Source: Ectothiorhodospiraceae bacterium (GTDB taxonomy: Bacteria; Pseudomonadota; Gammaproteobacteria; XJ16; Halofilaceae). From it: DNA of 64,000 bases. Location: assembly GCA_007134775.1 (NCBI GenBank), contig SLKC01000024.1, positions 62,001 through 126,000 on the forward strand, given 5' to 3'. Made by a program: the position numbers and the translations under genes. The notes beneath the pieces are model-generated. The model saw only the letters and a program-made list of their open reading frames with translations, searched no databases and had not been told where the DNA came from. Of the stretch, positions 1,566 through 24,572 are shown one piece after another (the stretch's first letter is position 1; the number at the start of each line of letters is the position of its first letter).

Positions 1566-2953
1566 GCGCTGCAGGGGGGGGCAAGGCCTCCGGGGGGCCG
1601 GCCTGGAAGGTCTATCTCGACCGGCGTGTCATCGCCATGGCCTTCCTCGGCTTCTCCGCCGGCCTGCCCCTGTTGCTGGTGGGCGGTACCTTTACCGCGT
1701 GGTTGCGCGATATCGGTGTCGAACTGGCGGCGATCGGCTTCCTCAGCTGGGTCGGCATGGCCCACAGCATCAAGGTCCTGTGGGCGCCGATCGTCGATCG
1801 TGTGCCCCTCCCGGTGCTGTCACGCCTGCTCGGGCGGCGCCGAGCCTGGGTGCTCGCGGCGCAGGTGACCGTCGCAGTCTCTCTGGCCGGGATGGCCCTG
1901 CTCGATCCAACGGCGCAGCTGGGCCTGGTCGCGGCTTGCGCGGTCGCGGCTGCGTTCGGCTCCGCCACGCAGGACATCGCCATCGACGCCTATCGCGTGG
2001 AGGCGGCCGAGCGTGAGCGCCAGGGGGCGATGGCCGCGACCTACGTCTTCGGCTACCGCATCGCGATTCTCGTCGCGGGCGCGGGCGCACTCCACATCGC
2101 CGCTTTCGGTGGCTGGGGGCTTGCCTACACCGGCATGGCGGTGCTGATGGGCATCGGCATGGTGACGATCCTGCTCGTACGCGAGCCGCAGGTCAGCGTC
2201 ACGCGCGCTACCGCTGCGCTTGAGCAGCGCGTCGCCGACTACCTCGGCAACACGAAGCACACGGGCTGGCGACGCGACGCAACGGCCTGGTTCATCGGTG
2301 CGGTGATCTGCCCCTTCGCCGATTTCTTCCGGCGCTACGGAGTCGCCGCTATCGCCGTGCTGCTCTTCGTCGGCACCTTCCGCATCAGCGACATCTTTAT
2401 GGGGGTGATGGCCAACCCATTCTACCTCGATGTCGGTTTCACCAAGGAGCAGATCGCCAATGTCGCCGCCGCCTTCGGCCTCGCCATGACCCTGACCGGG
2501 GCTGCGCTCGGTGGGCTGCTGGTGGCGCGCTACGGGATCGCCCGGTTGCTGATCGTCACCGCCATCATGGCGCCCGTCACCAATCTCACCTTCTCCTGGG
2601 TGGCCACGCTCGGTCCGGAGGTCTATGGCCTGGTGATCGCGATCATTGCGGACAACATCACCGGCGGTATGGCGATCTCGGTCTTCCTCGCCTACCTGGC
2701 GAGTCTGACCAACACGCAATACACCGCCACGCAGTATGCGCTCTTCAGTTCGCTGATGACGCTACCGGGGCAATTCATGGGCGGCTTCACCGGCGTGGTG
2801 GCCGATCACGTGGGGTGGGTCTGGTTCTTCGTCTTCAGCGCCGGCATGGGGATACCGGCGGTAATGCTCGCGTTCCTACTCCTGCGCATCGCTCATCCCG
2901 ACCGGGTCGAAAGACCCGGTCGGGATGAGCAGCGCGGCGATGTCCAGGCCTGA
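1562..2953 (+). CDS. AmpG-like major facilitator permease
   Basis: A 463-residue inner-membrane protein with about 12 hydrophobic segments. It fits the AmpG group of the major facilitator superfamily, which imports anhydromuropeptides for cell-wall recycling. The N-terminal YLDRRVIAMAFLGFSAGLPLLL and the loop WAPIVDRVPLP resemble AmpG. ATQDIAIDAYRVE in the fourth helix region is a typical AmpG signature. Its start overlaps the exonuclease stop (ATGA), so the two are probably cotranscribed. The last 20 codons contain a perfect 18-base-pair inverted repeat (separate entry), which makes the tail sequence AHPDRVERPGRDEQ unusual. The substrate is inferred from family only. Confidence 0.85.
   Translation: MSAAGGGKASGGPAWKVYLDRRVIAMAFLGFSAGLPLLLVGGTFTAWLRDIGVELAAIGFLSWVGMAHSIKVLWAPIVDRVPLPVLSRLLGRRRAWVLAAQVTVAVSLAGMALLDPTAQLGLVAACAVAAAFGSATQDIAIDAYRVEAAERERQGAMAATYVFGYRIAILVAGAGALHIAAFGGWGLAYTGMAVLMGIGMVTILLVREPQVSVTRATAALEQRVADYLGNTKHTGWRRDATAWFIGAVICPFADFFRRYGVAAIAVLLFVGTFRISDIFMGVMANPFYLDVGFTKEQIANVAAAFGLAMTLTGAALGGLLVARYGIARLLIVTAIMAPVTNLTFSWVATLGPEVYGLVIAIIADNITGGMAISVFLAYLASLTNTQYTATQYALFSSLMTLPGQFMGGFTGVVADHVGWVWFFVFSAGMGIPAVMLAFLLLRIAHPDRVERPGRDEQRGDVQA
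2891..2930 (+). terminator. 18-bp perfect hairpin with GAAA loop in the 3' end of the AmpG-like gene
   Basis: Bases 2891-2908 are the exact reverse complement of 2913-2930, separated by GAAA. The whole structure is inside the coding frame and ends 20 bases before the stop codon. No T-tract follows. It may act as a terminator or as an mRNA 3'-end stabiliser. The role is inference; the symmetry is seen directly. Confidence 0.55.
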
Positions 2954-3018
2954 CGGGTGCGACGGGGCGCGTCGATGCCGATAGCGGCTCGCCGCGCCCG
3001 CGTGCCCCGCGGGGGATG

Positions 3019-3501
3019 TCAGTGCTCTTCCGAGCCGTCGTGGACGTGGCCGTGCTCGATCTCCTCGCTGGAAGCCTCGCGCACGCCGACGACGCTGACG
3101 TCGAAATGCAGGGGCTGACCCGCGAGCGGGTGGTTGGCGTCCACGGTGACCTCTTCGCCCTCGACCGCAGTGACCGTGACCACGCGGACGTTGCCCTGGT
3201 CATCGGTCGCCTGGAAACGCATGCCGGGCTCGACCTGGTCGACGCCGGCGAAGGCCTCCATCGGTACTGCCTGGACGAGGTCCTCGCTGCGCTCGCCATA
3301 GGCGTTCTCGGGCTGGACCGTGACCTGCAGCGAGTCGCCTTCGGTGGAGCCCTCGAGCGCCTGCTCGAGGCCGGGGATCAGGTTGCCGGCCCCGTGGAGG
3401 TAGTTCAGCGGCTCCCGGCCCTCGGAGGAATCGAGCACCTCGCCGTTTTCATCAGTGAGTGTGTAGTCGATAGCGGCGACGGTGTTCTGTTCGATCTGCA
3501 T
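3019..3501 (-). CDS. slyD: SlyD-like FKBP-type peptidyl-prolyl isomerase
   Basis: This 160-residue cytosolic protein is a peptidyl-prolyl cis/trans isomerase and chaperone of the SlyD type. The FKBP core starts with VAAIDYTLTDENGEVLDSS. An insert-in-flap chaperone domain lies between about residues 70 and 120, and NHPLAGQPLHFDV (123-135) is the family-typical return to the FKBP fold. The C-terminus carries only a short His-containing tail (HGHVHDGSEEH), not the long metal-binding tail of E. coli SlyD, so a nickel-delivery role is less certain. The start has GGAG six bases upstream, and a good sigma-70 promoter lies in front. Confidence 0.9.
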   Translation of the reverse strand: MQIEQNTVAAIDYTLTDENGEVLDSSEGREPLNYLHGAGNLIPGLEQALEGSTEGDSLQVTVQPENAYGERSEDLVQAVPMEAFAGVDQVEPGMRFQATDDQGNVRVVTVTAVEGEEVTVDANHPLAGQPLHFDVSVVGVREASSEEIEHGHVHDGSEEH

Positions 3502-12066: not shown

Positions 12067-13011
12067 ATGAGTCGACCGCTGCGGATCGCCTTCGCCGGCA
12101 CCCCGGCTTTCGCGGTGCCCAGCCTGCAGGCCTTGATCGCTTCGGATCATGAGATCGTGACCGTGATCTCGCAGCCGGACCGGCCCGCCGGGCGCGGGCG
12201 CCGTCTCCAGGCCCCGCCGGTCAAGGAGGCTGCTGTCGCCGCGGGACTGCCCGTGGTCCAGCCTGAACGCCTTGACTGCGACGCATTTCGCGCGCTCGCC
12301 GGCGACTCGGCCGATGCCCTGGTCGTTGTTGCCTACGGCCAGTTGCTGTTACCGGAGCTGCTGGCCTTGCCCCGCTGGGGCGCGTTCAACGTCCACGCGT
12401 CGCTGCTGCCGCGCTGGCGGGGCGCAGCGCCGATCGCGCGCGCGATCCTCGCCGGGGATGCCGAGACCGGGGTGAGCATTATGCAGATGACGGCTGGCCT
12501 GGATGCTGGACCCGTGCTGGCGCGTGCGGCGACCCCGATCGGGGCCGAGGAGACGGCGGCGCATCTGCACGATCGCCTGGCCGAACTCGGTGCTCGGACG
12601 CTGCTGCCGGTGCTCGCCGATCCGGCAGCGCACTGCGCCGCTGCTGAACCGCAAGATTCCGCGACCGCCACTTACGCGCCCAAGCTCACACGGGCGGAGG
12701 CGTGGATCGACTGGTACCTGCCCGCGGAGCAGATCGCCCGCGCCGTGCGCGCCTTCCAGCCCTGGCCGGTGGCCCACACCGAGCTGGCGGGGACGGGCCT
12801 ACGCATCCACCGGGCCGAGCCCCTGTCGGGCGAGCCCGCTGCCGCGCCCGGGATGATCATTGGCGCCGGCGACCGGGGCATTGACGTCGCCACCGGCCGC
12901 GGCACGCTGCGCCTGCTCGAGGTCCAGCAGGCGGGACGGCGCGTGCTCCCGGCCGGTGAGTTCGCGCGCGCTCGGAGCCTGCGCGGCGAATACCTCGGGG
13001 CCGTCGCATGA
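12067..13011 (+). CDS. fmt: Methionyl-tRNA formyltransferase
   Basis: A 314-residue enzyme that formylates Met-tRNA(fMet) using 10-formyltetrahydrofolate. The formyl-transferase domain begins RIAFAGTPAFAVPSL. The active-site region is FNVHASLLPRWRGAAPI, with the catalytic Asn/His pair. The C-terminal OB-fold domain begins near EAWIDWYLPAEQIARAVRAFQPWP. The ATG at 12067 has GAGGTG upstream and gives the usual N-terminus; the frame stays open 11 codons further up. Its stop overlaps the rsmB start (ATGA). Confidence 0.96.
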   Translation: MSRPLRIAFAGTPAFAVPSLQALIASDHEIVTVISQPDRPAGRGRRLQAPPVKEAAVAAGLPVVQPERLDCDAFRALAGDSADALVVVAYGQLLLPELLALPRWGAFNVHASLLPRWRGAAPIARAILAGDAETGVSIMQMTAGLDAGPVLARAATPIGAEETAAHLHDRLAELGARTLLPVLADPAAHCAAAEPQDSATATYAPKLTRAEAWIDWYLPAEQIARAVRAFQPWPVAHTELAGTGLRIHRAEPLSGEPAAAPGMIIGAGDRGIDVATGRGTLRLLEVQQAGRRVLPAGEFARARSLRGEYLGAVA

Positions 13012-14294
13012 TGTCGGCTCGCGCTGCCGCGGCGCGCGCGGTTGCTGCCGTGCTCGCCGGCCGCGCCCTCGACGCGGCTGTCGACCACGCCCGCGGCCGC
13101 GCCGCAGGCGCCGAGGGGCCGCTGATCCAGCAACTGGCCTACGGTGCGGTGCGCTACTGGTTTCGCCTCGAGCCGCTCGTCGCGGCGCGTCTGCGACGCC
13201 CGCTCAAGCGCCGCGACAGCGATATCCATGCGCTGCTGGTGATCGCACTCTATGAGTTGCTCGACATGCGCACGCCCGATCATGCGGCCGTCGACGCTGC
13301 CGTCGAGGCCACGCGTGCGCTTCGCAAGCCGTGGGCGGGGAAGCTGGTGAATGCGGTGTTGCGCGGGGTGCTGCGCCAGCGCGAGGCGCTCGCGGCGACG
13401 GAGGAGCCGGTTCACGACCATGCCTGGCCGCAGTGGCTCGCGACGATGATCGCTGCCGACTGGCCCGCCGATTGGCCTGCGATCGCGGCGAGTGGGACGG
13501 CGCGTGCGCCGATGACGTTGCGCGTCAACACCCTCCGCATGGCGCGCGAGCGGTATCAGGAGCGACTGGCCGCGCTCGGTCACGAGGCGAGCGCGCATCC
13601 GAGCGTGGCGAGCGCTTTGACCCTGAGCCGTCCGTTGCCCGTGGAGGCACTGCCCGGCTTCGCCGAGGGCGATGTCACCGTCCAGGATGCCGCAGCGCAG
13701 CTCGCTGCCCCGCTCCTTATGCCGCTGAGCGGACTGCGTGCCCTCGATGCTTGCGCGGCGCCGGGCGGCAAGACCGGGCACCTGGCCGAGCTGGGCCCGC
13801 CAGCGAAGCTGGTCGCTCTTGAGCAGGATGCCGATCGGGCAGAAGACCTCAGGGCCACATGTCAGCGACTTGCGATCGCGGCGGATATCCGGGTCGCCGA
13901 TGCCAGCCGCCCCCGCGACTGGTGGGACGGGCGGGCCTTCGATCGCATCCTGCTCGATGCGCCCTGCAGCGGTACCGGCGTGATCCGGCGCCATCCGGAT
14001 ATTCGGCTGCTGCGCCGACCGAGCGATCTGGATGCACTCACCGTGCTGCAGGATCGGTTGCTGAGCGCATTGTGGTCCCTGCTGGCACCTGGCGGTATCC
14101 TGCTCTACGCAACCTGTTCCCTGTTGCGACGCGAGAACGCCGAGCGCATTGACCGTTTCCTCCAGCGTGAGCGGGACGCGGAGGTGATACCCATCGCGGC
14201 GGACTGGGGGCGGACCGAGGGCCCGGGACGGCAGATCCTGCCGGGAGAAGCCGACATGGACGGGTTCTTCTATGCTTGCCTGCGCCGGCACTGA
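13008..14294 (+). CDS. rsmB: 16S rRNA m5C967 methyltransferase (RsmB/Sun)
   Basis: The product methylates C967 of 16S rRNA with S-adenosylmethionine. The N-terminal NusB-like RNA-binding domain covers about residues 1-140. The methyltransferase domain has LDACAAPGGKTGHLAEL (SAM loop), LDAPCSGTGVIRRHPDI (PC catalytic motif) and ATCSLLRRENAERI (second conserved Cys). At 428 residues it has normal length. It overlaps fmt by four bases, and the next gene probably starts just after its stop. Confidence 0.95.
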   Translation: MMSARAAAARAVAAVLAGRALDAAVDHARGRAAGAEGPLIQQLAYGAVRYWFRLEPLVAARLRRPLKRRDSDIHALLVIALYELLDMRTPDHAAVDAAVEATRALRKPWAGKLVNAVLRGVLRQREALAATEEPVHDHAWPQWLATMIAADWPADWPAIAASGTARAPMTLRVNTLRMARERYQERLAALGHEASAHPSVASALTLSRPLPVEALPGFAEGDVTVQDAAAQLAAPLLMPLSGLRALDACAAPGGKTGHLAELGPPAKLVALEQDADRAEDLRATCQRLAIAADIRVADASRPRDWWDGRAFDRILLDAPCSGTGVIRRHPDIRLLRRPSDLDALTVLQDRLLSALWSLLAPGGILLYATCSLLRRENAERIDRFLQRERDAEVIPIAADWGRTEGPGRQILPGEADMDGFFYACLRRH

Positions 14295-14328
14295 TGCGAC
14301 CGCCTCCGGGCCGGAGCCACGTGTCGCC

Positions 14329-14916
14329 ATGAAGGTGACCCAGATGTTCCGGCGCCGTTTCGCTCGCGTCACAGTGGGCCTGCTGCTGCTCGCTCTGACC
14401 GGGATCGCGGCGGCCGAACCCCCGGCCAGCGGTCGCTTCGACCTCCGCAGCGTGGAGACCCGGCTTGTCGATGATGTCTACCGTCTCGACGCGATCGCCC
14501 GGCTCGAACTCAGTCCCCGTGCACGTGACGCCCTGGAGGGCGGAATCGCCCTGGTCATCGCGCTCGAAGTGGAGATCTTGCGGGAGCGTGCCTGGTGGCT
14601 GGATGCCGAAGTCGCAACGGTCCGGCGCCGTCTGCGTCTGGAACGGCACGAACTCAGTCAGCAGTACATTGTTATCAACCTGAGCACGGGGGAGCGGCGC
14701 AGTTTTCACCGCCCGCGCACGGCGCTCGATTTCATTGGCCGGGGACTCGACTTCCCGATCATCGATGCCGTGGTGATCGACGACCCCGAACGCTACTACG
14801 GTCGCGCCCGCATGCGCCTCGAGCGTGAGGCGTTGCCGTGGGCCCTGCGCCCTGCGGCACTCGCCTTCGGCGACTGGCGTCTCCAGACCGGATGGGTGAC
14901 ATGGTCGTTCGATTGA
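14329..14916 (+). CDS. DUF4390 domain protein, secreted
   Basis: A 195-residue protein of unknown function that commonly sits between rsmB and the NtrY-like kinase in gammaproteobacteria. A signal peptide is visible (RRRFARVTVGLLLLALTGIAAAEP), so the mature part is probably periplasmic. The rest is a beta-rich domain (FDLRSVETRLVDDVYRLDAIARLEL; PRTALDFIGRGLDFPIIDAVVI). The ATG at 14329 is chosen; 14344 is an equally possible start with AAGG upstream. No catalytic motif is visible. The fixed position beside the kinase suggests a link to its signal, which is inference only. Confidence 0.75.
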   Translation: MKVTQMFRRRFARVTVGLLLLALTGIAAAEPPASGRFDLRSVETRLVDDVYRLDAIARLELSPRARDALEGGIALVIALEVEILRERAWWLDAEVATVRRRLRLERHELSQQYIVINLSTGERRSFHRPRTALDFIGRGLDFPIIDAVVIDDPERYYGRARMRLEREALPWALRPAALAFGDWRLQTGWVTWSFD

Positions 14917-17099
14917 TGCAGCGCCTGGCCAACAGTGCCTGGCCGATGGTCGCGCTGTTCGTCCTGCTGTTGCTTTCACTGTATCTGCTCGCCGACTTCG
15001 CTGGCGATATCGAGCGCTTCGGTCGCTTCTACGTGCCGCTGCTGCTGCTCAATGCGGCCGGCCTGTTGTTCATCACCACACTGATCGGCATTAACACATG
15101 GCATCTGATCCGGCAGTTTCGCGCCCGTGCCGCCGGAGCGCGACTCACCGCCCGGCTCGTGCTCATGTTCGTGGTGCTCGCACTGGTGCCGGTGACCATC
15201 GTCTTCTACTTCTCCGTGCAGTTCATCCAGGCGGGCGTCGACTCTTGGCTCGACACCGAGGTCGAGCACGCGCTCGACGACGCGCTCAAGCTCTCGATGG
15301 AAGCGCTCGAGCTGCACGCCCAGGGGTTGGAGCAGACCACGGAGCAGGTGGCGCAGCGCCTCGACCCGGGCGAGGGGCGTGCCCGGATGAGCGTGCACCT
15401 TGCCGAGGCGAGCGCGGAGTTCGACGCGACGCGACTGGCGCTGTACAGCGAAAACAACTGGATGCTCGCGACGAGCGAGCATGCGGTACGAGGCCGCCTG
15501 CTGGATGACCGCCTGCCGCTGGATGTCGTCGAGCGGTTGCGGGCCGGCGAGTCCTACGCGGGTCTCGATCCAGAGCACGGCGAGCGCATGCATGTGCGTG
15601 TCGTCCTGCCGCTGGCGGCTGCCGATGAGGACAACGGCCTGCTGATGCTGGAGGCCCTGTATCCGGTCCCGGAGGCGATGGATACGCTGGCCGCCGAGAT
15701 CCAGGACGCCGTGGGCGGATATCGCGAGCTGATGTTCCTCCGTGAGCCGCTGCAGACCAGCTATATTCTGACGCTCTCCCTGGTCCTGCTGTTGTCCGTG
15801 CTCACGGCTGTCTGGGCCGCCTTTTTCTCCGCCCGGCGGCTGATGCTGCCGATACACAGCCTCGCCGAGGGTACGCGCGCGGTGGCGGAGGGGGATTACG
15901 CTACGCAGCTGCCGGTCAGTAGGCGCGACGAACTCGGTTTCGTCGTGCGTTCGTTCAACGAGATGACACGGCGTCTGCGTCAGGCTCGCGACCAGGCCCG
16001 GGTCAGCCGGCTGCAAGTCGAGAGCCAGCGCGCCTATCTCGAGGCGGTGCTCGAGCGCATCTCCACGGGCGTGCTGACCATCGACGCCCACGGCACCCTG
16101 CACACGGCCAATGACGCCGCCTCGCGCATCCTCGGCATCGCCCTCGGCCCCCGGACCGGCCAGCGCCTGGCCGATGTGGCCCGCGAGCACCCGCCGCTGG
16201 GGCAGTTCCTCAATGTGATCCTGCCGCAGATCGAGCAGGGCGCCCAGGAGTGGCGCGAAGAGCTGGAACTGCCGGCCAGCGTCGAGCGCTCGCAGGAGCG
16301 CCAGATCGTCGTCTGCCGGGGCGCGCGCCTGCCGGATCGCCAGGATCTTGCCTTCGGTTGGGTCATCGTCTTCGATGACGTCACCGCCATGGTGCGGGCA
16401 CAGCGCGAGGCGGCCTGGGCCGAGGTCGCGCGCCGGCTTGCCCACGAGATCAAGAACCCGCTTACGCCGATCCAGCTCTCTGCCGAACGCCTGCGCCACA
16501 AGCTGCTCGAGCAGCTGCCCGAGAGCGAGGCCGACATGCTGGATCGCTCGACCTGGACCATCATCCAGCAGGTCGATGCCCTCAAGGCAATGGTGCGCGC
16601 CTTCGCTGACCTGGCGGCTACCCCTGCGGCCGACTTTTCCGCGGTCGATCTCAACGCGCTTGTCACCGAGGTCGCCGACCTCTACGACGGCCATGCCGGT
16701 GGTTGTCGGGTGGATCTCGCGCTGGGTGAGGGGCTGCCCCCGGTATTGGCTGATCGCTCGCGTCTGCGCCAGGTCCTGCACAATCTGATCAAGAATGCCG
16801 TGGAAGCGCAGCGTGAACAGTCCGAGTGCGCGGTCGAGCTGGTGACAGGCGTTGCCACGGATCGGCGGGTGCGACTCGAGGTGCGCGACCGGGGGCCCGG
16901 CATCCCCCGTGAGCTTCTTGATCGGCTGTTCGAGCCCTACACCACCGGCAAGGCCCGGGGCAGCGGTCTCGGCCTGGCCATTGTGAAGAAGATCATCGAA
17001 GAGCACGGTGGCTTGGTCTGGGCCGCCAATCGGCAGGGCGGCGGGGCCTGTGTCACGCTCGAGCTGACGGTGACGCAAGAGTGGGAGAAGGGGTTGTGA
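14916..17099 (+). CDS. NtrY-like membrane sensor histidine kinase
   Basis: A 727-residue sensor kinase. Two hydrophobic segments near residues 10-30 and 40-65 and a third near 80-105 precede a periplasmic region of about 180 residues. A fourth membrane segment follows ([22 protein letters not shown]), then HAMP, a PAS domain ([22 protein letters not shown]), the dimerisation domain with [19 protein letters not shown] (His510 phosphorylated) and an ATPase domain ([29 protein letters not shown]). This order matches NtrY. The start could be 14892, 14901 or 14916; the last overlaps the previous stop as TGATG. The partner is the regulator encoded next. Confidence 0.88.
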
Positions 17100-17178
17100 T
17101 CAGGGGGGCAGTGCAGTTATGCCGTGCCTTGCGCGGCGTGAAGGGTGGGGTGATGCCGAACAGTGGAGGGGCGCAGCG

Positions 17179-18492
17179 ATGACGGGCAGCTCGATTCTGG
17201 TGGTGGACGACGAGCCCGATATCCGTGATCTGGTCCGCGAGATCCTCGAGGATGAGGGCTATATCGTCATGGTGGCCGCGGATGCAGACACGGCGCGGCA
17301 GAAGCAGCAGGAGAGCCGTCCCGATCTCGCGCTGCTCGATATCTGGATGCCGGGAACCGACGGTATCACCCTGCTGCAGGAGTGGCAGCAACAGCTGGAC
17401 GAGCCCTTTCCGGTGATCATGATGTCGGGTCACGGCACCATCGAGACGGCGGTTGAGGCCACGCGTCTCGGCGCCTACGATTTCGTCGAGAAGCCGCTCT
17501 CGCTGACGAAACTCCTGCTGACGGTACGGGGTGCACTCGCGCAGGAGGCCCGTCCCCCAGGGGGGGCAACGCGTTCGGCGGGAGGTGAGCCGGAACTGGT
17601 CGGCAGCAGCCGTTCCATCGCCGAACTCCGCGAGACCATCCGACGCGTGGCGGCGAGTTCATCGCCGGTGCTCGTGCGTGGCGAGAGCGGCAGCGGTCGG
17701 CGCACCAGTGCGCGTCTGATCCACGCCGGCAGCGCCCGCGCGGCGCAGCGCGCTCTTGAACTCGACATCGGGGGCGTCGGGGTCGACCACGTCGACAGCG
17801 CCCTGTTCGGCCGTGATGGGTATTGGGAGCGGGCCGCCGGCGGGACCCTGATCATCCATGATGTGGCCGAACTCGATCTCTCGGTGCAGGCGCGGCTCGC
17901 ACGCGACCTGCGTGCCTCGACCCCGGCGGACCAGCCGCGTTTGATCGGTGTCACCGGAGAGTCGCTCGAAACGCTGGTCGACAGGGGCAGCTTCCGCGGC
18001 GACCTGCTGCACCGCTTTGCGGTTGCCGTGGAGGTGCCCCCGCTGCTTGCGCACCCCGAAGACGTGCCCGATCTGATCGCGCACATCGTCGATCGCCTGG
18101 TCGAACACCACGGCCTGCCCTACCGCCATTTCCCGGTATCGGCCCAGAACCGGCTGCGCCACCATCTCTGGCCGGGCAACGTCGCGGAACTCGAGGCGGT
18201 GATTCAGAAGCTCCTGGTGCTCAGCGAAGCGCCCGAGGTCGATGTCGCTGAGGTCGATCGGGCGCTGGCGGCCAGCCAGCCGCCCGTGCCGCCGTCGACG
18301 ACGATGCGACTCCCGCTCGAGCTGCCACTGCGCGAGGCGCGCGATGCCTTCGAGCGCGCCTATCTCGAGCACCAACTCCGGGCCGTGGGCGGTCGCATCG
18401 GCGAACTCGCCCAGCGAGTGGGCATGGAGCGCACCCACCTCTACCGCAAGCTCAAGAGTCTCGGCATCGACTATTCCCGGCGCCGCCAATAG
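17179..18492 (+). CDS. NtrX-like response regulator with degenerate AAA+ domain
   Basis: A 437-residue regulator paired with the upstream kinase. The receiver domain is intact (VVDDEPDI at 8-15, phosphoacceptor Asp54, Lys105). The central domain aligns with sigma-54 activator ATPases but is degraded. Walker A reads GESGSGRR, with Arg174 in place of the essential Lys. The GAFTGA loop that contacts sigma-54 is absent: only about ten residues separate ALFG from GGTL. Walker B reads GGTLIIHDVAE, without the usual Asp-Glu pair. The C-terminal Fis-type helix-turn-helix (RIGELAQRVGMERTHLYRKLKSLGI) is intact. The ATG at 17179 follows GGAGGG. It is probably a DNA-binding regulator that does not activate sigma-54. 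Confidence 0.85.
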   Translation: MTGSSILVVDDEPDIRDLVREILEDEGYIVMVAADADTARQKQQESRPDLALLDIWMPGTDGITLLQEWQQQLDEPFPVIMMSGHGTIETAVEATRLGAYDFVEKPLSLTKLLLTVRGALAQEARPPGGATRSAGGEPELVGSSRSIAELRETIRRVAASSSPVLVRGESGSGRRTSARLIHAGSARAAQRALELDIGGVGVDHVDSALFGRDGYWERAAGGTLIIHDVAELDLSVQARLARDLRASTPADQPRLIGVTGESLETLVDRGSFRGDLLHRFAVAVEVPPLLAHPEDVPDLIAHIVDRLVEHHGLPYRHFPVSAQNRLRHHLWPGNVAELEAVIQKLLVLSEAPEVDVAEVDRALAASQPPVPPSTTMRLPLELPLREARDAFERAYLEHQLRAVGGRIGELAQRVGMERTHLYRKLKSLGIDYSRRRQ

Positions 18493-18621
18493 CGTGGCAG
18501 TCCACGCGGCGACCCCGTGTAGCGGTGCCAGCGATCGCGGCGCGCAGCGCCGGGCTGCAGTGGTGGATGTAAGGGCCTACAATTGCCGCACGCGTTATCC
18601 CCGGCGGATCCCGATTCCAGC

Positions 18622-19995
18622 ATGAAGATCATCATCCTCGGTGCCGGCCAGGTCGGCTCCTCGGTCGCACACAATCTGGCCGGGGAGGACAACGACATCA
18701 CGGTCGTCGACATCAATGCGCGCGTGCTGCAGCAGCTGCAGGACAAGCTCGACATCTCCACGGTCGCCGGGGTCGCCTCGCACCCCGATGTCCTGCGCCG
18801 CGCGGGCGCGGACGACGCCGACATGGTGCTCGCCGTGACCAGCAGTGACGAAGTCAACATGATCGCCTGCCAGATCGCCTACACCCTGTTCCACACGCCC
18901 ACCAAGATCGCGCGCCTGCGCCGTCAGGCCTATCTCAACGAACAGCGGCTGTTCGTCCAGGACGCCATCCCCGTCGATGTGCTGATCAGTCCCGAACTCA
19001 TTGTCACCGATTATGTGCGTCGTCTCATCGAGCATCCGGGTGCGCTGCAGGTCCTCGACTTCGCCGGCGGGCGGGTACGGCTTGTCGGTGTCCGCGCCTT
19101 CCACGGCGGCCCGCTGGTCGGCCACGAGCTGCGAACCCTGAAGGAGCACATGCCGAAGGTCGACAATCGGGTCGCGGCGATCTATCGCCAGGGTGCGCCG
19201 ATCATCCCAACCGGCAGCACCGTGATCGAGGCCGACGACGAGGTCTTTTTCGTCGCCGCACAGAAGGATATCCGGGCGGTGATGTCGGAGCTGCGCAAGC
19301 TCGACAAGCCGGTCAAGCGCATCATGCTCGCCGGTGGCGGCAACATCGGCAAGAACCTCGCGCAGCGCCTGGAGCAGCAGATCAATGTCAAGATCATTGA
19401 ACGCGATCCGGAGCGCGCGCAGTGGCTCTGCGAGCACCTCGAGCATACGGTCGTGTTGCAGGGCGACGCGGCTGATCGCGAGTTGCTGCTCGAGGAGAAT
19501 ATCGAGGACATGGATGTCTTCTGCGCGCTGACCAATGCCGACGAGGCCAACATCCTCTCGGCGATGCTGGCCAAGCGCATGGGCGCGACCAAGGTGATGT
19601 CGCTGATCAATCGGCCCGCTTATGTCGATCTGGTGGAGTCGGGCGTCATCGACATTGCGATTTCGCCGCAGCAAGTCACGATTGGCTCCCTGCTCGCCCA
19701 CGTCCGGCGTGGTGATGTGGTCGCGGTCCACTCGCTGCGCCGCGGTGCCGCCGAGGCGATCGAGGCCATCGCGCACGGGGATCGCAATACCTCCCGCGTC
19801 GTCGGCCGCCGCATCTGCGAGATCCCGCTGCCGAAGGGGGCGACGATCGGCGCCGTGGTGCGCGGTGACGAGGTCAAGATGGGACACGACGATCTGATCA
19901 TCCACGCCGAGGATCACGTGATCCTGTTCCTCGTCGACAAGCGCCGCATCCCGGAGGTAGAGAGGCTCTTCCAGGTCGGTGTGACCTTCATCTGA
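18622..19995 (+). CDS. trkA: Trk system potassium uptake regulator TrkA
   Basis: A 457-residue cytosolic NAD-binding subunit that gates the TrkH potassium channel. Two tandem RCK modules are visible. The first begins [14 protein letters not shown] (GxGxxG) with an Asp at the end of the second strand ([15 protein letters not shown]). The second begins [18 protein letters not shown] near residue 235. Each is followed by an RCK-C domain. The ATG at 18622 gives the standard N-terminus. It lies 13 bases upstream of trkH, forming an obvious operon. Potassium uptake by Trk is typical of salt-adapting bacteria. Confidence 0.96.
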
Positions 19996-20008: not shown

Positions 20009-21463
20009 ATGCACCTCAGCGTTGTCCAGAAAGTCCTCGGTCTGCTGCTGATGCTGTTCAGCATCACCATGCTGCCGCCCGTGGGGGTAGCCTGGTGGTA
20101 TGGCGACGGTACGGACCAGGCTTTCCTCGCCGCCGCGGCGATCCTGCTCCTGCTCGGATTCGCCGTCTGGCTGCCCGCGTGTCGCTCGCGCCAGGGCCTG
20201 CGCCTGCGCGAGGGTTTTCTCGTCGTCGCCCTGTTCTGGTCCGTGCTCGGCCTCGCCGGCGGCCTGCCGCTCTATCTCGCCGAGCATCCCGATATCTCGG
20301 TGACTGACGCCGCATTCGAGTCGGTATCCGGCCTGACCACGACGGGCTCGACGGTCCTGGTCGGCATCGGCGACCTGCCGGAGTCGATTCGATTTTACCG
20401 TCAGCAGCTACAGTGGATGGGCGGCATGGGGATCATCGTGCTCGCCGTGGCCATTCTGCCCATGCTCGGCATCGGCGGCATGCAGCTCTATCGCGCCGAG
20501 TTCCCCGGACCCGTCAAGGACAGCAAGCTCACCCCGCGCATTGCCGAGACGGCCAAGGCGCTGTGGAACATCTACCTGGGGCTGACCGTCCTGTGTGCCG
20601 TGGCCTACTGGTCGGCGGGCATGACGCCGTTCGACGCGATCGGCCACAGCTTCTCGACGGTGGCGATCGGCGGTTACTCGACCTACGACGCCAGCATCGG
20701 CCACTTCGACAGCGCGGCGATCGAGCTCATCGCCATTGTCTTCATGGTCCTCGGTGGCGCCAACTTCGCCCTGCACTTCGCCGCCCTGCGCCGCCGCAGC
20801 CTCTACCCCTACGCGATCGATGCCGAGTTCCGCACCTTCGTCGGCTTCCTCGGCGGCATTGCGGCGATCACCGTCGGCTATCTCCTGCTGCAGGGCACCT
20901 ATGGCAGCGACTGGTGGCGGGCGGTCCATGAAGGGCTGTTCCAGGCGGTGTCGATCGCCACGACGACCGGCTACGCCACGGCCAATTTCCATCTCTGGCC
21001 CGCTTTCCTGCCCGTGCTGCTCATCTTCGCCAGCTTCGTCGGCGGCTGCGCGGGCTCCACCGGTGGCGGGCTCAAGGTCATCCGGGTGCTGCTGCTGGCG
21101 AAGCAGGGTGCGCGTGAACTGGTCCGCCTGGTGCACCCGAATGCCCGCGTCGCCGTGAAGATTGGCGGCAAGGCCCTGGACGACCGCATCATCCAGGGTG
21201 TGTGGGGCTTTTTTGCCGCCTATGTCCTCTGCTTTGCCCTCGGCATGCTCGTGGTCATGGCCACGGGCCTCGACCAGGTCACTGCCTTCTCGGCGATGGC
21301 CGCGACCATCAATAACCTCGGGCCCGGGCTCGGCGATGTCGCCCCCCACTTCCGTGATATCCCCGACACGGCGAAGTGGGTCCTCGCTTTTGCCATGGTG
21401 CTCGGGCGCCTGGAGATCTTCACCGTGCTGGTCCTTCTCACCCCGGCGTTCTGGCGCCGGTGA
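20009..21463 (+). CDS. trkH: Trk potassium uptake channel TrkH
   Basis: A 484-residue inner-membrane potassium transporter with four repeated membrane-pore-membrane units. The four pore-loop regions are recognisable: TTTGSTVLVG, FSTVAIGGYSTYD, TTTGYATANF and INNLGPGLGD. Each contains the Gly used for the selectivity filter. It works with TrkA encoded just upstream. The stop codon overlaps the GTG start of the next gene. Confidence 0.96.
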   Translation: MHLSVVQKVLGLLLMLFSITMLPPVGVAWWYGDGTDQAFLAAAAILLLLGFAVWLPACRSRQGLRLREGFLVVALFWSVLGLAGGLPLYLAEHPDISVTDAAFESVSGLTTTGSTVLVGIGDLPESIRFYRQQLQWMGGMGIIVLAVAILPMLGIGGMQLYRAEFPGPVKDSKLTPRIAETAKALWNIYLGLTVLCAVAYWSAGMTPFDAIGHSFSTVAIGGYSTYDASIGHFDSAAIELIAIVFMVLGGANFALHFAALRRRSLYPYAIDAEFRTFVGFLGGIAAITVGYLLLQGTYGSDWWRAVHEGLFQAVSIATTTGYATANFHLWPAFLPVLLIFASFVGGCAGSTGGGLKVIRVLLLAKQGARELVRLVHPNARVAVKIGGKALDDRIIQGVWGFFAAYVLCFALGMLVVMATGLDQVTAFSAMAATINNLGPGLGDVAPHFRDIPDTAKWVLAFAMVLGRLEIFTVLVLLTPAFWRR

Positions 21464-22380: not shown

Positions 22381-22697
22381 GCCGTATCCGGCACTTCGAG
22401 GCGATGCTCGAGCGGGGGCAGGATGGCGCGCTGTTGCGCTTTTCCCTGGGCAACGAGTACCTCGCAGCGGGCGAGCCGGCGCGCGCGGTCGAGCATCTCG
22501 CCTGCGCCGTGGAGCACGACCCCGGCTATTCCGCTGCCTGGAAGGCGCTGGGGCGTGCCCATGAGCGTTGTGGTGATACCGCGGCCGCGATGGCGGCGTG
22601 GGATCAGGGTATCGAGGCCGCACAGGCGCGGGGCGACAAGCAGGCGGCCAAAGAGATGCAGGTCTTTCGCAAGCGCTTGCAGAAGGCGGGGGGATGA
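22377..22697 (+). CDS. Small TPR-containing protein
   Basis: A 106-residue protein built from tetratricopeptide-like helices: LLRFSLGNEYLAAGEPARAVEHLACAVEHDP, then AAWKALGRAHERCGDTAAAMAAWDQGIEAA. It should be a cytosolic protein-interaction module; the partner is unknown. The start is TTG at 22377, overlapping the rarD stop as TTGA, with GGAG eight bases upstream. The stop overlaps the start of the acyltransferase gene, so translation is probably coupled on both sides. Confidence 0.7.
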   Translation: MSRIRHFEAMLERGQDGALLRFSLGNEYLAAGEPARAVEHLACAVEHDPGYSAAWKALGRAHERCGDTAAAMAAWDQGIEAAQARGDKQAAKEMQVFRKRLQKAGG

Positions 22698-23674
22698 CGC
22701 AGGCAAGGCACGTTCGACACAGCCGCAGCGCGGTCCCCGCATTCCATCGCGGGCTTCTGGCGCCGCGCCACTGGGGTGCCTGGTGTGCCATCGGTCTGAT
22801 GAGCCTGCTGGTGCTGCTGCCGCAGCGCCTGCGCGACGGCATTGGCGCGGGCCTCGGCGAACTCAACTACCGCTTCGCCGAGCGCCGGCGCGCCATCGCC
22901 CGGATCAACATCGGGCTGTGCTTCCCGCATGAGGCCGCCGCCCAGCGCGAGGAGTTGGTCCGGGGCCACTTCCACGCCTTTGGCCGGACGCTGGTCGATA
23001 TGCCCCGGCTGTGGTGGGACTGGCGCGCCCGCTTTGGTCGGCGCGAATGCCGTTTCACCGGCCTGGACATCGTGCAGCGCCACGTCGCCGCCGGGCGCTC
23101 GGTCATCCTCCTTAATCCACACACGGTGGCGGTCGATTTCGGGGGGGCGGCGCTCACCCAGCACTTCTCGATGTCGACGATGTTCAAGCCGCTCGGCCAT
23201 CCGGTCGCCGACTGGCTTGTCGCGCGGACCCGTGCGCGCTATGGCGCCCTGTTCGCGCGCGAGGACGGGCTGCGCCCCGTACTTCGGGCCCTGCGCCGTG
23301 GGAGCGTGTTCTACTACATGCCCGACGAGGACCTCGGCGAGCGCGATAGCGTCTTTGCCCCCTTCTTCGGTCGCCAAAAGGCGACACTGTCGACGCTATC
23401 GCGGTTGGCACGCGGTGACCACGTGGTCGTCGTCCCCATGATCGCCTTCTATGATCCGGCTGCGCGGCGCTACGACATCAAGCTGTTGCCGGCGCTGGAA
23501 GATTTCCCCAGCGGGGATGCGCAGGCCGATGCCGCGGCCATGAATCGCGCCCTCGAGCGCGCGATTCGGCGGCGCCCGGAGGCCTACTTCTGGACCTTCC
23601 GCCTGTTCCGCACGACACCGTTTGGCGAGGTCTCGCCCTACAAGGGGCTCAAACGCCGTTCCGGCAGGGGATAG
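22694..23674 (+). CDS. Lipid A biosynthesis acyltransferase (LpxL/LpxM family), HX4D type
   Basis: A 326-residue inner-membrane acyltransferase of the HtrB/LpxL family, expected to add a secondary acyl chain to a lipid A precursor on the cytosolic face. A hydrophobic N-terminal anchor is present (GAWCAIGLMSLLVLLP). The catalytic motif is NPHTVAVDFGG, where His and Asp form HX4D. PEAYFWTFRLFRTTPFGE near the C-terminus matches the family's YxWxxRRF-like block. The ATG at 22694 overlaps the previous stop. A second family member follows after 4 bases. Donor chain and acceptor cannot be read from sequence. Confidence 0.85.
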   Translation: MTQARHVRHSRSAVPAFHRGLLAPRHWGAWCAIGLMSLLVLLPQRLRDGIGAGLGELNYRFAERRRAIARINIGLCFPHEAAAQREELVRGHFHAFGRTLVDMPRLWWDWRARFGRRECRFTGLDIVQRHVAAGRSVILLNPHTVAVDFGGAALTQHFSMSTMFKPLGHPVADWLVARTRARYGALFAREDGLRPVLRALRRGSVFYYMPDEDLGERDSVFAPFFGRQKATLSTLSRLARGDHVVVVPMIAFYDPAARRYDIKLLPALEDFPSGDAQADAAAMNRALERAIRRRPEAYFWTFRLFRTTPFGEVSPYKGLKRRSGRG

Positions 23675-23678
23675 TGGG

Positions 23679-24572
23679 GTGCTGTCCCGTCTCCTGCAAT
23701 GGTCCATCGGTGCCGTCGGGCGCCTGCCGTTGCCCGCGGCACAGGTGCTCGGTGCCGGTCTCGGTAGCGTGATCTGGCTGCTGCCAAACCGCGCACGCCG
23801 CACCGCCAGTGCCAACATTGCGCGTTGTTTTCCCGCGCTGACGCCAGCGGCGCACCGCCGCCTGTTGCGCCAGAGTCTGCAGCACCTCGGGCGCACGGTG
23901 ACCGATAGCGCCTGGGTGTGGACGCGCCCACCAGCGGCGCTCGAGTCGGTCGTGCGCGAGGTGCGGGGCTACGACGCGGTCGAAGCGGCGCAGACCGCTG
24001 GCCGGGGGGTCATCTTCGTCAGCCCCCACATCGGCTGCTGGGAGTTGGTTGGGACGTGGCTCGCCCGCCGGACGCCGTTGACGGCGCTGTACCGACCGCC
24101 CCGGCTGCGGGCGCTGGAGCCGATCATGATCGCGGGCCGCGAGCGCACCGGCGCACGTCTGGTGCCGACCGATGCACGCGGTGTGCGCACGCTGGCGCGG
24201 GCGCTGAAGGCGGGCGAGGCGATCGGCATCCTGCCGGACCAGGCGCCGCCGCCCGGTCGGGGCGTGATCGCGCCCTTCTTCGGGGAGCCCGCCCGAACCA
24301 TGATGCTGCTGTCGCGGCTTGCCCGCCAGCGCGAGGTAAGCGTGATCTTCTGCGTCATGGAGCGTCTGCCACGGGGCGCCGGCTTTCGCCTGCATCTGTT
24401 GCCGGCGATCGAGGAGGTCGGCGCCGCGGATGACATTGCCGCCGCGACGGCGGTGAATCGGGAGGTGGAGCGCTGTATCGCGCTGCGTCCGGAGCAGTAT
24501 ATGTGGAGCTACCGCCGCTTTCGGCGAGTGGGGAGCCGTCGTGGTGGGCAAAAAGAAGCCCGGCCCCGCTAG
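23679..24572 (+). CDS. Lysophospholipid/lipid A acyltransferase family protein, HX4E type
   Basis: A 297-residue second acyltransferase in tandem with the previous gene. The catalytic motif is SPHIGCWELVG (HX4E). The C-terminal PEQYMWSYRRFRR is the standard LpxL/HtrB signature. ILPDQAPPPGRGVIAPFFGEPA matches the substrate-pocket block. It starts with GTG at 23679, with no better in-frame start. The pair probably adds the two secondary acyl chains of lipid A (inference). The stop codon sits in the loop of a strong hairpin (separate entry). Confidence 0.85.
   Translation: MLSRLLQWSIGAVGRLPLPAAQVLGAGLGSVIWLLPNRARRTASANIARCFPALTPAAHRRLLRQSLQHLGRTVTDSAWVWTRPPAALESVVREVRGYDAVEAAQTAGRGVIFVSPHIGCWELVGTWLARRTPLTALYRPPRLRALEPIMIAGRERTGARLVPTDARGVRTLARALKAGEAIGILPDQAPPPGRGVIAPFFGEPARTMMLLSRLARQREVSVIFCVMERLPRGAGFRLHLLPAIEEVGAADDIAAATAVNREVERCIALRPEQYMWSYRRFRRVGSRRGGQKEARPR

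Follow-up and report, generated by a model that had tools for sequence, protein, structure and literature searches.

How might a response regulator with the frame of a sigma-54 activator work when its central AAA+ domain has lost residues on which such activators depend? The question is raised by an ntrX-like gene (17179..18492, plus strand; open frame, recognised by Pfam and NCBIfam) that encodes 437 amino acids and a stop codon in a window of 64,000 nucleotides, i.e., the whole stretch of DNA analysed, from an Ectothiorhodospiraceae bacterium (GCA_007134775.1, contig SLKC01000024.1). A sequence-only reading had described the product as an NtrX-like regulator with a broken ATPase that may act at sigma-70 promoters, perhaps those of trkAH just downstream.

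The NtrX-like protein and its locus

The protein carries a receiver domain (residues 6-116, 17194..17526) with phospho-acceptor D54, a central AAA+ domain, and a Fis-type helix-turn-helix (HTH) at about residues 389-430 (18343..18468) with GMERTHLYRKLKSLG, both ends being placed by Pfam and alignment; these and the other parts of the gene and its cluster given below lie on the plus strand. Every Pfam match exceeds its cut-off (receiver 104.6 bits, Sigma54_activat 69.6-70.8, AAA_lid_14 54.1, HTH_8 32). The receiver and the HTH are thus intact, as had been claimed, the receiver of an intact paralogue scoring 105.8 bits. Receiver residues D10, D11, D54, S83, and K105 are identical in all 130 gammaproteobacterial orthologues compared.

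Among NCBIfam models, NtrX ranks first (344.5 bits; NtrC reaches 229.8), although its score stays short of the NtrX equivalog cut-off of 600. NtrX is the nearest family for this receiver, central domain, and Fis-type HTH, the closest PDB match is Brucella abortus NtrX, and the protein clusters with beta/gamma NtrX in a tree (node support 0.89). The locus agrees with the assignment. Immediately upstream lies the presumed partner, an ntrY-like sensor histidine kinase gene with HAMP, PAS, HisKA, and HATPase domains (14838..17099; Pfam, longest frame), preceded by a DUF4390 gene (14272..14916; PF14334, 128.3 bits) homologous to plrP, whose role is described in the available part of PMC13001219. 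The gene neighbourhood further includes rsmB (13008..14294) as the conserved upstream neighbour and trkA (18622..19995) and trkH (20009..21463) as the downstream ones. Among gamma loci with enough flanking sequence, ntrY is found in 117/122, plrP in 110/122, rsmB in 109/120, and trkA downstream in 94/122.

Erosion of the AAA+ domain

Alignment with intact members locates the losses. Walker A reads GESGSGRR (residues 168-175, 17680..17703), with Arg in place of the essential Lys at position 174, as the sequence-only reading had stated, and with a second Arg next to it where intact members have Glu. The GAFTGA loop is indeed missing: loop 1 is reduced to the remnant GRD (residues 211-213, 17809..17817), three residues where the intact paralogues of the same genome have 15-16. 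The claim that Walker B lacks Asp-Glu holds in part, since Asp is replaced by His (H227-D228 in LIIHDV, 17857..17862), but the Glu position is occupied by Asp, so that an acidic residue stays. Two further losses had escaped that reading: loop 2, the second sigma-54-facing loop, also described as the pre-sensor I insertion, is cut to 10 residues instead of 19 (244-253, 17908..17937), and the sensor II Arg is replaced by Ala (A336, 18184..18186). The protein therefore lacks four of the features expected of a sigma-54 activator, namely the GAFTGA loop, the Walker A Lys, the Walker B Asp-Glu, and the sensor II Arg, while it retains the AAA+ fold and the RxDxxxR Arg-finger motif (FRGDLLHR, within FRGDLLHRF at residues 272-280, 17992..18018). 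The P-loop glycines are kept as well, and, together with RxDxxxR, they count against the interpretation preferred below.

The same genome encodes eight proteins that match Sigma54_activat with 224-240 bits, against 69.6 bits for the window NtrX. Their Walker A reads GESGTGKE or GETGxGKE, the loop 1 segment bears GAFTGA in six and GAYTGA in two, loop 2 has 19 residues in all eight, and the Walker A Lys, Walker B Asp-Glu, both Arg-finger Arg residues, and the sensor II Arg are present in 8/8. The sensor I Asn and the position of PspF-N64 were dropped as markers, being variable even within this intact set. These eight strong matches speak against a genome-wide decay of enhancer-binding proteins. 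One other protein is degenerate nonetheless (L024:598-2376, G000:C196): it has 592 residues comprising a PF09370 phosphoenolpyruvate hydrolase-like domain (189.6 bits), an AAA+ domain, and a Fis-type HTH. Its AAA+ domain matches Sigma54_activat with 26.1-29.5 bits and has Walker A GPAGTQRH, no GAFTGA, and no Walker B Asp-Glu; judged by its sequence, it appears to be a second, unrelated-looking enhancer-binding-protein frame with a dead motor. Five further Sigma54_activat matches in the genome are weak and partial (20.6-26.5 bits).

What the substitutions may mean for nucleotide chemistry can be judged from PspF. According to Table 1 in the available part of PMC3419264, ATPase activity is undetectable in PspF K42A and below 1% of the wild type in D107A, E108A, and E108Q. 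The equivalents of Lys, Asp, and Glu are all replaced in the window NtrX, by residues other than those tried in PspF. Such data make ATP hydrolysis by this protein very unlikely, and nucleotide binding would also be unlikely.

Conservation within the genus

In the two other genomes of the genus, the sole other members of its order in the collection, NtrX shares the loop deletions, loop 2 being 10 residues long in each of the three genomes, and likewise has Ala at the sensor II position, while its Walker B reads Asn-Asp. It follows that the loop deletions are no sequencing artefact, and the possibility that an error hides intact motifs, which the sequence-only reading had named among its refutations, can be dropped. 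Both congeners keep the Walker A Lys (codon AAA; CGG in the window gene), so Lys-to-Arg is confined to the window species and the other losses are genus-wide. RxDxxxR shows the opposite distribution: its second Arg is present in the window species and missing from both congeners. The loops were probably lost before the genus split, and the Lys was replaced later.

When the two congeners are compared with each other, dN is 0.011 and dS 0.737 for the receiver, the corresponding values being 0.101 and 0.553 for the AAA+ domain, 0.049 and 0.334 for the lid, and 0.009 and 0.457 for the HTH, i.e., quotients of 0.015, 0.18, 0.15, and 0.02, respectively. The quotient of the AAA+ domain is thus about twelve times that of the receiver, which indicates a relaxed domain that is still by no means unconstrained. 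In comparisons of the window gene with either congener, where dS is near saturation, dN/dS amounts to 0.20-0.21 for the receiver, 0.46-0.53 for AAA+, 0.47-0.48 for the lid, and 0.08-0.13 for the HTH. The AAA+ domain of this genus is thus relaxed but still under some constraint, and it has not been deleted. Eight other close pairs gave variable results. AAA+ is under tighter constraint than the receiver in the pair L069/L097, which keeps five of six ATPase elements, and some pairs with an altered Walker B also have a well constrained AAA+, for instance L071/L082 (about 0.05). Pairs of the latter kind count against the preferred interpretation and mean that motif erosion is not always accompanied by relaxation.

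The predicted structure has a mean pLDDT of 87.8, with the AAA+ part mostly above 90, and its AAA+ domain superposes on those of NtrC1 and FleQ at 1.8 A over 224-226 residues; the model was built from an alignment of relatives. In prediction, the fold is therefore intact, which shows that the sequence is compatible with the fold and not that the pocket works.

Erosion across the NtrX family

Is the window protein an outlier among NtrX proteins? A class-wide sample gives no support for this. An NtrX match at E <= 1e-60 is present in 172 of 274 genomes, and 130 of those 172 were aligned, the genus trio included; they were taken mainly by E-value order among the matches listed, with some second family members and all matches weaker than 4.9e-98 left out, so that the census leans to better conserved proteins. 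A GAFTGA-like loop occurs in none of the 130, which answers the proposed check of whether its loss is lineage-wide. The Walker A Lys is present in 110/130 (in 103 together with the scored P-loop glycines), the Walker B Asp-Glu in 36, the first and second Arg-finger Arg in 111 and 24, respectively, and the sensor II Arg in 102. Only nine orthologues have all six scored ATPase elements; 32, among them the window NtrX with two, have two or fewer. The window protein stands towards the eroded end of a family in which such losses are widespread. Loop 2 keeps 19 residues in 118/130, with the loop alignment uncertain in those domains that are eroded furthest.

A second set, drawn from a public genome collection, holds the best 80 of at least 588 loci. 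By record titles and tree place, 27 of them are gamma, 33 alpha, and 12 beta NtrX, and eight are outgroup rows set apart by possession of a GAFTGA loop. The titles of the latter are Rokubacteria, Nitrospiraceae, Thermodesulfovibrionia, Deltaproteobacteria (two), Acidobacteria, Pyrinomonadaceae, and one alphaproteobacterium; a locus titled Arenimonas (L249) is placed among the alphas. Within these best 80 loci, all six elements are present in 8/8 GAFTGA rows and in 29/33 alpha NtrX, which have the Lys in 33/33 and GAFTGA in 0/33. The 12 beta proteins of the same set have four residues in loop 1, nine in loop 2, and the Lys in 0/12. Altogether, GAFTGA is found in 0/173 beta/gamma sequences possessing an AAA+ domain.

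The beta domain is still recognisable, scoring 112-157 bits with PF14532 in the five proteins scanned, and this remnant qualifies the statement in the available part of PMC13001219 that beta NtrX lack AAA+. In these five (L207, L218, L202, L216, and L205), PF14532 (Sigma54_activ_2) is a far better match than PF00158; despite its name, "Sigma-54 interaction domain", this family may represent the eroded form that lacks the loops. The end point of erosion was met among 16 loci found via NtrY, eight of which were dropped since ntrX was cut or missing in a short locus (L161-L163, L165-L167, L173, and L176). Four of these NtrY-found loci encode proteins of 191-230 residues with a receiver and an HTH only, in two lineages (221-230 and 191 residues), and a Pfam scan of all four gave no AAA+ family. 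The family is thus able to work without the ATPase. In L167 and L173, ntrY-like genes occur with no ntrX detected in the short surrounding locus.

Mean pairwise identities of the receiver, AAA+, lid, and HTH are 0.685, 0.480, 0.558, and 0.625 in the 130 gammas; 0.663, 0.607, 0.540, and 0.800 in the 33 alphas; and 0.751, 0.393, 0.475, and 0.624 in the 12 betas, the last two groups being drawn from the best 80 of at least 588 loci. The AAA+ core is the looser part in gammas and betas. The HTH is also less uniform there than in alphas, and its lower identity in gammas (0.625 vs. 0.800) counts against the preferred interpretation.

Repeated losses on the tree

A tree of 218 sequences (207 with NtrY and 11 without) was built from receiver, HTH, and NtrY columns, with the AAA+ columns excluded. 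Node supports are mixed, from 1.0 for the window genus and 0.89 for beta plus gamma to below 0.2 for some deep gamma nodes, and the following counts are therefore approximate. The Walker A Lys changes 15 times under either counting rule, or 16 times with nodes below 0.9 collapsed. The tree shows nine losses of loop 2, and at seven of these loop 1 is likewise down to six residues or fewer, so that both loops are cut together; the entire AAA+ domain is absent in two places. For the Walker B Asp-Glu, the two rules give 24 and 40 losses, and because they diverge both here and for the second Arg finger, no loss number is put forward for either. One NtrX-like protein with GSFTGA, on a contig titled Alphaproteobacteria (L244), stands among the loop-less alphas; it is either a retained ancestral form or a misplaced sequence.

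The order of the erosion steps can be inferred from this tree. On balanced odds, beta/gamma NtrX form a natural series of a motor being dismantled in a transcription factor: the sigma-54 loop would be lost first and the catalytic residues next, on many occasions; the joint removal of both sigma-54-facing loops would follow, and complete loss of the AAA+ domain would come last, with the sensor and DNA-binding ends retained throughout. In this series, the window genus would be one step short of complete loss and would use its remnant as a module for assembly that needs no ATP.

Sigma-54 and possible target genes

The sequence-only reading had also advised checking whether the genome encodes RpoN, and rpoN is present. 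RpoN is found in 223/274 genomes of the class sample, and its co-occurrence with NtrX is strong (163/172 NtrX genomes vs. 60/102 others), which does not favour sigma-54 independence, although the association may stem from genome size and descent. RpoN was not matched in nine NtrX genomes; of these, G042, G089, and G181 are at least 93% complete and speak for the interpretation preferred below.

As to the targets, the suggestion that NtrX regulates trkAH is unsupported, though such regulation stays possible. The ntrX-trkA gap has a median of 35.5 bp in 114 loci (94 gamma, 13 alpha, and 7 beta); in 54 it is 30 bp or less or the genes overlap, and in 15 the overlap is 4 bp. An overlap by four bases is also given for Bordetella plrR and trkA in a figure legend of PMC13001219, available in part. 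Such short or absent gaps suggest shared transcription of ntrX and trkA in relatives rather than a target promoter. The gap is longer in the window genus (129 bp in the window, about 450-470 bp in congeners), where a promoter is therefore possible; a consensus scan of 18450-18660 found no promoter-like or terminator-like site. The congener gaps (L025 and L026, about 2820-3290) hold similar GC-rich stretches.

The published NtrX pattern GCA-N9-TGC occurs at 17108-17127 in the ntrY-ntrX gap, as two overlapping copies, and at 18544-18558 in the ntrX-trkA gap, with 36 matches in the whole window against 30.2 expected. It is enriched in relatives neither in the 150 bp upstream of ntrX (7/155 loci vs. 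8.9 expected) nor downstream of ntrX (3/154 loci vs. 8.1 expected). Other high-scoring dyads near ntrX were discarded, the stretches in question including ntrY coding ends and trkA starts.

According to the available part of PMC7240162, the sites to which NtrX binds in R. sphaeroides lie in front of NtrX's own operon and of genes for the cell envelope, which makes envelope genes at least as good target candidates. Two adjoining lipid A biosynthesis acyltransferase genes lie in the window at 22598-23674 and 23622-24572 (PF03279, 227 and 185 bits; their longest frames overlap). By analogy with the envelope link in R. sphaeroides, this pair may be regarded as candidate NtrX targets.

Proposed mode of action and alternatives

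Taken by sequence, both sigma-54-facing loops and the catalytic residues are lost, the receiver and HTH are kept, and the domain between them is eroded or removed repeatedly in relatives. We consider it probable, with some margin for error, that the window protein, a beta/gamma (PlrR-type) NtrX of the rsmB-plrP-ntrY-ntrX-trkA-trkH cluster, is a phosphorylation-switched DNA-binding regulator at housekeeping-polymerase promoters, which keeps the AAA+ fold as a scaffold. NtrY, tuned by the periplasmic DUF4390 protein, would phosphorylate D54 of the receiver; phosphorylated NtrX would assemble, bind DNA through the Fis-type HTH, and activate or repress promoters of the housekeeping polymerase, presumably with sigma-70. 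The AAA+ fold would serve as a linker and assembly scaffold that neither hydrolyses ATP nor touches sigma-54. The earlier proposal of sigma-70 regulation survives to the extent that a sigma-54-independent mode appears likeliest, the contact loop and catalytic residues being gone.

The alternatives differ mainly in what they ask of the AAA+ remnant. It could bind a nucleotide, ATP or another, without hydrolysing it, binding being needed for activity as reported for R. capsulatus NtrC at sigma-70 promoters. This would account for the kept P-loop glycines and for the Lys of the congeners, and the presence of Lys with the glycines in 103/130 gammas, against the Walker B Asp-Glu in 36/130, is the pattern expected if binding outlasts hydrolysis; moreover, ATP and ADP are named in the titles of structures of Brucella NtrX (5m7n and 5m7p), another protein that lacks GAFTGA. 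It is nevertheless unlikely, given that the window species has Arg for Lys, His for the Walker B Asp, and Ala for the sensor II Arg, and that a defect in ATP binding is ascribed to PspF K42A (PMC3419264, available in part). That the remnant is instead a pocket for another ligand, e.g., c-di-GMP, as in FleQ and VpsR, is a very slight possibility. The fold matches do include VpsR and a FleQ structure with c-di-GMP, and the domain persists without catalytic motifs; such matches, however, are expected for any family member, and the LFRS motif of FleQ is not seen ahead of the AAA+ domain.

An equally slender chance is left to a role of the window NtrX at sigma-54 promoters, for instance as a competitor or by entering mixed rings together with an intact paralogue. 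In its favour are the presence of rpoN and of eight intact paralogues in the genome, the co-occurrence of NtrX with RpoN, and the RxDxxxR retained in the window species; the second Arg of this motif, however, is lost in both congeners and kept in only 24/130 gammas, which leaves no conserved role of this sort, and homologues without any AAA+ domain exist. Finally, several motif losses and in-frame deletions in a single domain might be taken for a decaying pseudogene. This is next to incredible, as the frame is open and three genomes share the gene with its receiver and HTH conserved, and it was rejected since dN/dS is below 1 in every part in all three genus pairs and the cluster is conserved. 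The phosphorylation-switched regulator with an ATP-free scaffold is hence the interpretation retained.

Relation to known regulators and significance

The R. capsulatus NtrC named as precedent by the sequence-only reading gives way to nearer ones, namely Brucella, Caulobacter, and Thioalkalivibrio NtrX, all without GAFTGA, and Bordetella PlrR. PlrR of the PlrPSR system shares the cluster rsmB-plrP-ntrY-ntrX-trkA-trkH, with a partner histidine kinase and a DUF4390 protein, and its phosphorylated form is essential in vitro, as its authors conclude; it is described as a receiver plus a DNA-binding domain, whereas the eroded AAA+ domain stays in the window NtrX (PMC13001219, available in part). 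Alpha NtrX (Brucella abortus 5m7n/o/p, Caulobacter, R. sphaeroides) likewise lack GAFTGA, give the best sequence and fold match, and have a related HTH; they differ in keeping the Lys and, mostly, all six elements, as noted above for the best 80 of at least 588 loci. Caulobacter NtrX is already listed without GAFTGA in the available part of PMC10274813. A gamma NtrX so listed is that of Thioalkalivibrio thiocyanoxidans (Table 2 of PMC5744179, available in part), though the Thioalkalivibrio row L200, unlike the window NtrX, keeps all six elements.

More distant parallels come from the same part of PMC10274813. The NtrC proteins of R. capsulatus and Caulobacter are GAFTGA-less and reported at sigma-70 promoters, but they are NtrC, and ATP binding (R. 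capsulatus) or the Walker residues (Caulobacter) are reported to matter; the window NtrX differs by changes in both Walker motifs and by its shortened loop 2. Vibrio cholerae VpsR is GAFTGA-less, acts with sigma-70, and is reported there as ATP-independent. Structure titles give VpsR as c-di-GMP-binding, whereas the window NtrX has a phospho-acceptor and a neighbouring kinase gene.

NtrX without GAFTGA and beta NtrX without AAA+ have thus already been reported, and what is added here is the graded, repeated erosion between them. No earlier description of it was found in the literature searched; since four classes of NtrX proteins are mentioned in the available part of PMC12697260, part of the series may already be in print, perhaps in the gonococcal NtrX study by Atack et al. 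2013 (PMC3676050). Because erosion is common in the family, the single protein becomes less surprising and the family pattern more interesting. Database names that refer to sigma-54, such as the Pfam "Sigma-54 interaction domain", probably mislead on the mode of action of the beta/gamma NtrX compared here. Intermediates on the way from a functional AAA+ activator to a regulator of two domains exist in this family, and these natural relatives allow tests of the role of an AAA+ domain after hydrolysis stops and of the shift from sigma-54 to the housekeeping polymerase.
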